From assembly GCA_963971535.1 (NCBI GenBank), contig OZ020594.1, forward strand, positions 117,711,127 through 117,775,126: 64,000 nt of DNA. The letters run 5' to 3'. Positions 56,812-60,700 of the stretch are shown here, in pieces. Origin of the DNA: Notolepis coatsorum. Its lineage: Eukaryota; Chordata; Actinopteri; Aulopiformes; Paralepididae. Position 1 is the first letter of the stretch. Each line of letters begins with the position of its first letter. The notes below the pieces were generated by a model that saw only the letters and a list, made by a program, of their open reading frames with translations, ran no database searches and was not told the DNA's origin. The position numbers were made by a program, and so were the translations under genes.

Positions 56812-57436
56812 GTACACTCACTGCATTGCTCCCCAACGACAAACAGAGATAATGGCTGAGTCAACGCTTCCCTTGACACACAAGCGTATTCATACAGGAG
56901 AGAAGCCGTACCACTGTGACCAATGTGGGAGTAACTTCAGTCAGTCTGGAAACTTAAAGATACACCAGCGTATTCATACAGGAGAGAAGCCCTACCACTG
57001 TGACCAGTGTGAGAAGAACTTTGCACATTCTAGTCATTTAAAAACACACCAGCGTATTCATACTGGAGAGAAGCCATACCACTGTGACCAGTGTGGGAAG
57101 AACTTCAATGAATCTGTAGCCTTAAAGATACACCAGCGTATTCATACGGGAGAGAAGCCCTATCACTGTGACCAGTGTGGGGAAGGCTTCAGTCAGTCTG
57201 GAACCTTAAAGACACACCAGCGTATTCATACAGGAGAGAAGCCCTATCACTGTGACCAGTGTGGGAAGAACTTCGCACATTCTAGTCATTTAAAAACACA
57301 CCAGCGTATTCATACGGGAGAGAAGCCATACCACTGTGACCAGTGTGGGAAGAACTTCAATAAATCTGTAGCCTTAAAGTGCAACTTCCACGTTGTATTT
57401 TTGTTCAATAAACAATGTGGACTAGGCCAACAGTGA
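56812..57436 (+). CDS. C2H2 zinc-finger protein, truncated in finger 6
   Basis: A strong acceptor (TTCTTTTCTCTTCTCCAG, 56,811) opens the exon; the first ATG is at 56,852 with context ATAATGG. The 194-residue frame starts with the tail of a finger ([12 protein letters not shown]), followed by five complete C2H2 fingers of the [10 protein letters not shown] type. A sixth stops after SVALK and runs into 18 unrelated residues and a stop. Contact residues (-1,2,3,6) are QGNI, HSHT, EVAI, QGTT and HSHT, so fingers 1-3 and 4-6 look like a duplicated triplet. The break is at a TTAA (57,374-57,377) where DNA of the THAP element begins. The missing His pair and short array suggest a gene cut short by insertion. 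It was probably a nuclear DNA-binding factor; whether the truncated form works is unknown. Confidence 0.85.
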
Positions 57437-57750
57437 CTTTCATGAAGAATGGGAAAAAAAAGTATTGAAATTGACCCAGTTTTAGCGTTTTTATCAAACA
57501 TTTTGTCTGCCCAACACAATCAGCATGCACGTGCATATTTTACTCAATGGTTCATAGCGTGCACGTGTAATGTCGTCACAACAGGTATTGGTCACCAGGG
57601 GGCTCTGTGCTCTGGGAGTCACAGGCAGTAGCAAGGAGGCGGGGCTGGCAGAGCCTTCTTGTTACTTGTTGCATCCGGCTCCACTTGTTGACTAACACGT
57701 TGTGAGCTTGCAACACGCTGTTCTCTTCTCTTCTTCTGACTTGCTAAAAC

Positions 57751-60700
57751 ATGGTGAATGTTTGTGTGTGTGGTGGGTGTACTAACTCCAACCGTTCTGG
57801 CCATAAAATGCACACCTTTCCGAAGAAAGGCACGCCAGCCTTTAGATCATGGGTGAGATTCGTACAGGTGAAGAGGGCTGATTTTCCGGCGTCGTCGGCG
57901 AAAGACTGTGATCGACACACGGTCATATGTGGAGCTCATTTCAGAGAGACGGATTACATCCCAGGAGATCTCCTCTCCTATAGATTGGGATTTCGAACTT
58001 TGGACCGGGTGAGACTCGTAGAAGGTGCTGTGCCGTCTATACAGTCACCTGGCCAGCCCTCTGTGAGTGCACGCTCCGCTGCTGAAGTTCTCAGTTCTCG
58101 GGTAAGTGAATCTAATCGAACTAACGTTAGCTTTTTGACGCTAACGTGTGTGTGTCGTTGTGTGTGTGTGTGGTTGTGTCTGTGTGTGTGTCGTGGTGTG
58201 TGTGTGTGGTTGTGTGTGTGTCTGTGTGTGTGTCGTTGTGTGTGGTTGTGTGCGTGTGTCGTTGTGTCTGTGTGTGGTTGTGTGTCGTCGTGTGTGTGTC
58301 GTTGTGTGTGTGTGTGTGTGTAGTTGTGTGTGTCTGTCTGTCTGTGTGTGTGTGTCGTTGTGTGTGGTTGTGTCTGTGTGTGTGTCGTGGTGTGTGTCGT
58401 GGTGTGTGTGTGTGGTTGTGTGTGTGTGTGTCGTTGTGTGTGGTTGTGTGCGTGTGTCGTTGTGTCTGTGTGTGTGTGTCTGTGTGTGTGGTTGTGTGTC
58501 GTCGTGTGTGTGTCGTTGTGTGTGCGTGTAGTTGTGTGTGTCTGTCTGTGTGTGTGTGTCGTTGTGTGTGTCTGTCTGTGTGTGTGTGTCGTTGTGTGTG
58601 GTTGTGTGTCGTTGTGTGTGTGTCGTTGTGTGTGTGTGTAGTTGTGTGTGTCTGTCTGTGTGTGTGTGTCGTTGTGTGTGTCTGTCTGTGTGTGTGTGGT
58701 TGTGTGCGTGTGTGTGTGTACAATGCAGTGTTGAAGAGATGTTCCAAGTTCGCAAACTAAAAGTCTAATGATAAAAGTGTTTCTCATGGCGTTTGGAGCA
58801 GGCAACACATGTTTTTTCACCACTGTGTAAGAGCACAGGCCAGAGTGAGTTTGATTAATTGAAAGCAAGGTTATGATCAGATCAAGTAGATTGCATATTA
58901 TGAACATTCCTTAGTTCTGTAACTTTAGTGTAGGGGCTGAAGATATACAATTATTTCCAATATTTGAAAAGGTTGAGAACCACTGAGCTAGGTCCACAGT
59001 CTGTGGTCTAGGTGTTGGAGTGTAATTAATAATAGTTGAGAACCACAAACACTGTAAACACTGAATGCTCCTTTTTTTTTTTTTTTTACAACAGACTCTT
59101 CAAACCCACTCTGCGTCTGCGACCCCTGACGTGACGGAGGAGCCGATGATGGAAGAGGAGGAAGCTGGCCCATCTGAACCCGATCTTCCACCCTCTGAGC
59201 CACGAAGGGAATCTGCACACAAGGCAACACAGTTCAGCTACCGGAGACCACCACACCGGTCTTTGGGTAGGTTTTAATTTGTTTTGCACGTTTTAGCCAA
59301 CACAACCACAAAAATAAATAATTAAATTAGATACCAATGATGTAAACTACGTTTTGCAGAGTAGGGCTTTAAATTATATCACTTGTTTTCTACAGGCATC
59401 CAGGTTTCCCCCCAGATGTTGTCCTTTGGGACACAGGCAGTCCCCCAAATGGTGTCTGTTGAAACACAGACAGACATTACAAGCTTTGAGGCCAGTCCAA
59501 TGCAAAGCCAATGCACCATTTCTCAGAGTGGTAGTGAACAGTCAGGTGAGGGGCCATGCAACCAATTATAATCGTTATAATTTTTTCCCCCTACTGAATG
59601 AATGATATTATTAATTGCTTTTAAAATCAGAATGTGTTAATTCACTAGGCGAAGAAACACACCTTTATGATGTGTGTATGTTAGGAGACGGCATCGCTCA
59701 TTGTGACCCAACAGAGCATCTTGATGTGATCAATTCACCAGTTGAACCAGTTTACCAGAACAACCACAGCTCAAGGCTTTGACCGACTCCCATTTGTATC
59801 GACTAAATCATTTCAGCACCAAAGAAAAGTGACTGCAATTGGGTTCCAGAGGCTGACGGCGATCTGTTCTCTGAGAGCTCTGATGACTTGCCACACCTTG
59901 AAGCATCCTCTGCCCCTTGGTAAGACACAGTTACACTAATCTGTTCATGTCACGATACTGACTGTTCAGTCTTAATCAAACTTTTGTTTTGTTTTTCTTA
60001 ATTTTTTCTCAGCTATATCGATAAGTATATAGTGTGTCACAGCCAACTCATGGAGCTGTTTGCCACTTGCCCGAGCTGCTGTGAGGCCACACAAGCCAGC
60101 ATACAGAGACAGGAGGGGACATTTGTGAAAATCCAACAGGTAAGATTTCATCCTGCATTGAAGCGGTTTATCACTTTGCATTATGCTAGTGCTTTCAATC
60201 TGATTTCAGCATAAAACTAGTGTCTTATGCTGAATTTGGTGGGGGGGTTTTCTTCAAAAACATGTTTTCTCACTTTATTCCTCAGCCATAAGAAAGTACA
60301 CACAGACAGTACACCACTGATCATTTGAATATATTTCATAGGTCTGTTCAGCATGTGAATTCAAGAGGGTTTGGCGGAACCAGTCAATGCTGCACAGAAA
60401 CATGCCTGAGTGCAACCTGCAGCTGAGTGGAGCTGTACACTTTTCAGGGTGTATGCCCCAGCAGACATTCAGAATGCTCCAGCTATTTGGCCTACAGTGC
60501 ACCAGTGTGAACACCTACTTCGGCCATCAGCGCTACTACACGATTCCCACCGTCATCCAGGCCTGGCAGAGCCAGCAAGCCAGTATCCTCCGTGAGCTGC
60601 AGGAGATGGAAGGGGGATTGATTTTGTCTGGAGACTGCAGGTTGATTACCATGTTCATTGTTATATTAATCATTATAATATACACATAAGTACAACATTA

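Follow-up and report, generated by a model that had tools for sequence, protein, structure and literature searches.

A putative Kol0-type Kolobok transposon with a spliced THAP transposase gene and a KolX gene within a zinc-finger exon of Notolepis coatsorum

Kolobok elements and placement of the insertion

Kolobok DNA transposons produce TTAA target duplications and, as against piggyBac, have RR...YY ends; piggyBac likewise inserts at TTAA, and KolX-like proteins are encoded by a few of its families (PMC9587614). Members of the Kol0 lineage, represented by Kolobok-1_XT, encode a transposase together with KolX, a protein with the ballast fold (Kojima & Bao 2022, PMC9587614); a literature search for KolX together with Kolobok leads to this same paper. 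Elements described from Xenopus have AG ends and TTAA together with THAP, DDE and H2CH motifs, and domesticated Kolobok transposases are known from this genus (Hikosaka & Konishi 2018, PMC6004289). The ballast domain is also known from the P2X7 receptor and nanor (Rump et al. 2020, PMC7016195); the available part of the latter text does not contain "transpos" or "Kolobok".

The window, that is, the whole stretch of 64,000 nucleotides analysed here, corresponds to C29:117711127-117775126 of the 3.42-Gb genome of Notolepis coatsorum; reading was extended beyond its end, and window numbering is kept there. The locus very probably holds a Kol0-type Kolobok of about 10.8 kb, with a spliced THAP transposase gene and a KolX gene on the opposite strand, recently inserted at a TTAA in finger 6 of a zinc-finger frame (Table 1).

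Table 1. Coordinates of the features at the insertion locus (window numbering)
Feature	Position	Strand	Remarks
Interrupted C2H2 zinc-finger frame	56852..57436	+	5 whole fingers, cut finger 6, short transposon-derived tail; 194 aa
TTAA target site	57374..57377		duplicate at 68140-68143, beyond window
Kolobok-type DNA transposon, in-window part	57374..64000		continues to 68143; 10,770 bp including both TTAA
Left terminal inverted repeat	57378..57394	+	imperfect partner at right end, beyond window
THAP transposase gene	57751..64000	+	13 exons, 754 aa; last exon crosses window end
Transposase exons 1-5	57751-58101, 59095-59266, 59396-59545, 59817-59919, 60013-60139	+	
Transposase exons 6-9	60342-60640, 61846-61936, 62056-62172, 62423-62498	+	
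Transposase exons 10-13	62624-62881, 63045-63216, 63646-63794, 63899-64098	+	
Nested non-coding insertion, hAT-like, intron 6	60728..61806		1,079 bp; 8-bp duplication CATCTATC
KolX gene	exons 67805-67627, 66806-66576, 66428-66260	-	3 exons, 192 aa; wholly beyond window

All eight full-length copies examined, the window copy included, are flanked on both sides by the 4-bp TTAA duplication and have AG...CT termini, that is, 5'-RR and YY-3'; the transposase carries a THAP DNA-binding domain (Pfam PF05485, 1.4e-9, above its cut-off) and the second gene product has the ballast fold of KolX. These features fit the Kol0 lineage of Kolobok, a placement made by published features. As far as the searches show, the element represents a new family within a kind already known, and no new class is implied. 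Assignment to another superfamily that targets TTAA or carries THAP is very unlikely. P elements, whose transposases also carry THAP, make an 8-bp target duplication, whereas here a 4-bp TTAA is found, and neither a piggyBac-type nor a P domain appears among the Pfam matches of the transposase at E up to 1; no PDB transposase is matched at E up to 5. For piggyBac, TTAA targeting and the KolX-like protein of a few families would agree, but the AG...CT termini are of the RR...YY kind given for Kolobok and not for piggyBac (PMC9587614).

The element of Notolepis shares with Kolobok-1_XT the TTAA duplication, the RR...YY termini and the coding of a transposase together with a KolX that has the P2X7 ballast fold; it differs in its 13-exon transposase gene, its length of about 10.8 kb and its own ends, the comparison being one of features (PMC9587614). 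It also resembles the Xenopus XKol elements (PMC6004289, Table 5) in its flanking TTAA, AG ends, short imperfect terminal repeats, size class (6.8-13.9 kb), THAP transposase and recent amplification. However, the Xenopus transposases are listed in that source as single uninterrupted coding sequences, while 12 introns are found here.

The interrupted zinc-finger frame and the ends of the element

The preliminary description reported a sixth finger that resembles its siblings and then gives way to unrelated DNA. This is confirmed: finger 6 tracks the sibling fingers as far as ...GCC TTAA AG, with the switch at the TTAA of 57374-57377. The second TTAA with a resumed finger, expected downstream, was also found; it extends to 68143 and finger 6 continues directly after it with AGATACACCAGCG. 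When the two flanks are joined with one TTAA, a single 327-aa frame of 11 fingers is restored, with its stop codon at 68599, so that the insertion shortens a frame of 11 fingers to 5 whole fingers in 194 aa. Both edges and the joined frame thus support the proposal that a TTAA-targeting Kolobok with a THAP protein interrupted the zinc-finger frame. The zinc-finger gene would now yield a 5-finger product or none. By eye, an AATAAA is read on the + strand at 57407-57412, just inside the left end, and it could cause early termination of zinc-finger transcripts. Among the matches listed for the 283-nt joined flank (best 40 of 1,551 candidates), none represents an empty allele in the assembly; the best are adjacent fingers of the same exon, at 93%, followed by a zinc-finger gene on C9, at 92%.

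The left edge is sharply defined by the copies elsewhere in the genome. Among the 26 places listed first after the window's own, 23 begin at query 69-75, equivalent to window 57368-57374, and 22 of these DNA-search matches start at query 73-75; the remaining three start at query 53, 148 and 196. Since 23 of the 26 start within six bases of TTAA, the position of the edge is not due to chance. Concerning the right end, an inverted complement of the left had been predicted, and only part of this prediction stood: an inverted right end is present, as an imperfect repeat with 12 of 17 positions matching the left end in the window copy (14 of 17 in L033, a short relative with another left end), and the exact inverted complement was absent from all nine regions searched.

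Other features were observed upstream in the window. A full-length match to 5S rRNA lies at 38886-39004 (84.1 bits) and may be a gene, a pseudogene or a 5S-derived repeat. Broken transposase-like frames at 53204-54001, with a weak zf-C2H2_12 match (1.4e-4, below cut-off), are presumably a hAT relic; two near-identical 84-aa minus-strand frames, 289 bp apart at 54182-54725, represent a local duplication.

The transposase and KolX genes

The models of both genes were built from splice signals and open frames. The THAP start codon lies 373 bp into the element (codon at 57751, first element base 57378), as first described, and the spread of the gene over many introns was borne out, with GT-AG at all 12 of them. 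The predicted 754-aa transposase contains no stop. Candidates for a DDE triad, a C/DxxH signature and an H2CH finger can be assigned by eye to residues 398, 463, 489, 549 and 613, an order that matches the published one; no catalytic-domain match was obtained in Pfam or PDB. The transposase would bind the element ends through its THAP domain and may cut and join DNA by a DDE mechanism; KolX may assist transposition. A long GT-rich minisatellite occupies window 58140-58720 in intron 1 and is matched in other copies too.

The length, splicing and openness of the THAP gene, together with the precedent of domesticated Kolobok transposases in Xenopus (PMC6004289), could also be explained if it were a domesticated or ordinary host gene lying by chance beside a degenerate zinc-finger gene. 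This explanation is extremely improbable: the TTAA edges are exact on both sides and the finger resumes beyond them, exon 6 is fully covered at 94-100% identity by 23 of 64 matches, 22 of them stop-free, and the copies are 99% identical. The host-gene candidate was therefore ruled out by copy number and edges. Likewise, the idea of a gene on its way to becoming a host gene gained no supporting finding; nothing shows domestication, because the transposase is one of a family that is repeated and has moved recently.

The second gene encodes a protein with the P2X7 ballast domain (Pfam P2RX7_C PF20478, 4.1e-20), which also matches the ballast part of P2X7 chains (3.2e-7). It is the published Kolobok accessory protein KolX. 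The gene is open in all eight full-length copies, and its coding sequence is identical in seven of them. The element's KolX resembles the ballast domain of P2X7 and nanor (PMC7016195), but the latter two are host genes, for both of which, in the case of P2X7 for the C-terminal domain, Kojima & Bao proposed an origin from KolX (PMC9587614). The link between KolX and P2X7 is thus already in print, having been described in general beforehand.

Genome-wide, the best P2RX7_C match is located at C1:154217025-154217489 (213 bits, positions 37-191, in a 179-aa open frame); this single strong match is probably a host P2RX7 exon, and it fits a jawed vertebrate. Other, more diverged KolX-like exons are abundant on many contigs: at least 150 matches to P2RX7_C were obtained (the best 150 of 614 candidates), most of which cover profile positions 143-192 in an open frame of some 59 aa, and this points to one or more further high-copy families of Kolobok-like elements. 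Remote relatives of exon 6 of the transposase gene, with 28-30% identity, occur at C1:262287344, C8:54440392, C45:49642583 and other places, inside long open frames, of which several measure about 636 aa; another Kolobok-like family, this one lacking introns, may therefore be present.

Copies, subfamilies and possible mobility

Regions were taken for nine places, namely the window's own downstream part and eight others; one of them (C8:58), a 671-bp match with the left end only, was left out of the copy counts. Both ends are found in eight full-length copies, that of the window and seven elsewhere, which measure 9,087-12,956 bp including both TTAA and have pairwise identities of 98.96-99.93% at aligned bases. 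Private substitutions in the window copy number 15 over 7,649 gap-free columns (0.2%), against 0 to 49 in the other seven. At a neutral rate of 2-5e-9 per site per year, this 0.2% would correspond to about 0.4-1 million years; the figure is a maximum, as some of the private changes may be shared by source copies outside the sample. Judged by these sequences, the family is young and has moved recently.

The two ends are widespread: with up to 3 mismatches, 1,231 left and 2,409 right ends were counted in the genome, and none with the reversed control patterns. The ten exact left ends listed on C1 were paired by hand with exact right ends; the partner lies at about 1.55 kb for six of them and at 9.1-10.7 kb for three, and one is without a partner. 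Five short copies were read and both element ends are common to all of them: four measure 1,548-1,549 bp with a mutual likeness of 99.1-99.9%, and the fifth 126 bp. In the former (L032, L033, L035, L036), 229 bp resembling the left end and 217 bp resembling the right end enclose a central part of about 1.1 kb that has no match to the full element. These short relatives may be mobilised in trans by the full element.

Two subfamilies can be distinguished by the nested insertion of intron 6, which we take to be hAT-like on account of its 8-bp duplication. Both of its ends are found in seven of the eight window-type copies and its right end in the eighth; conversely, it is absent from all three more diverged copies (C8:181, C3195, C23:83), which have an empty site with a single CATCTATC. 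The window subfamily would thus have gained an intron passenger and yet spread. All three diverged copies have an exon 1 shorter by 45 nt and an exon 2 not aligned to an AG acceptor, so that their exon 1-2 boundary either differs or is misaligned. C8:181 and C3195 gave no match to the first exon of KolX, probably because the stretches examined end before it.

Between the subfamilies, dN/dS is 0.23-0.32 for the transposase and 0.41-0.47 for KolX, the latter based on 4 to 15 changes. The transposase comparison left out C1_256 and C1_130, with deletions reaching exons, and C23:83, with a frame-breaking indel, and included C8:181, which has a stop at codon 80; the KolX of C23:83 was compared only upstream of the indel in exon 3. 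The window copy against C7_103 gives 0.34 for the transposase and 0.27 for KolX (2 changes), and its transposase against the near copy C21 gives 1.43, on 6 changes. Substitutions per aligned site amount to 1.7-2.1% in transposase exons, 1.0-1.6% in KolX exons and 2.5-3.2% in non-coding parts. This pattern is consistent with genes kept working during the spread of the family, by a small margin.

Whether the window copy can itself move is a separate matter. Its residue 362 is G, versus R in four of four copies of the same length and three of three diverged copies, and the two of eight full-length copies whose transposase genes are broken, by deletions that reach the exons, keep both ends; a recent inactive passenger with a non-working transposase, moved in trans, would account for these facts. 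Such a passenger is on the unlikely side, though by no means negligible, since the frames, splice signals and ends of the window copy are all whole; the transposase frame and all splice signals are open in six of the eight copies. The reading of the element as a still-mobile vertebrate Kol0 Kolobok, with a whole transposase and a whole KolX, can be put forward tentatively, its chances being somewhat short of even.

Exact ends, a clear pre-insertion frame, near-identical copies and open genes are all required for testing the activity of a vertebrate Kolobok, and the present case offers them. The persistence of open KolX genes in all eight full-length copies examined is relevant to the view, already published, that KolX was the source of the cytoplasmic domain of the P2X7 receptor; if the element is still mobile, it would allow a direct test of the role of the ballast fold before its capture by the receptor, that is, of KolX in transposition.
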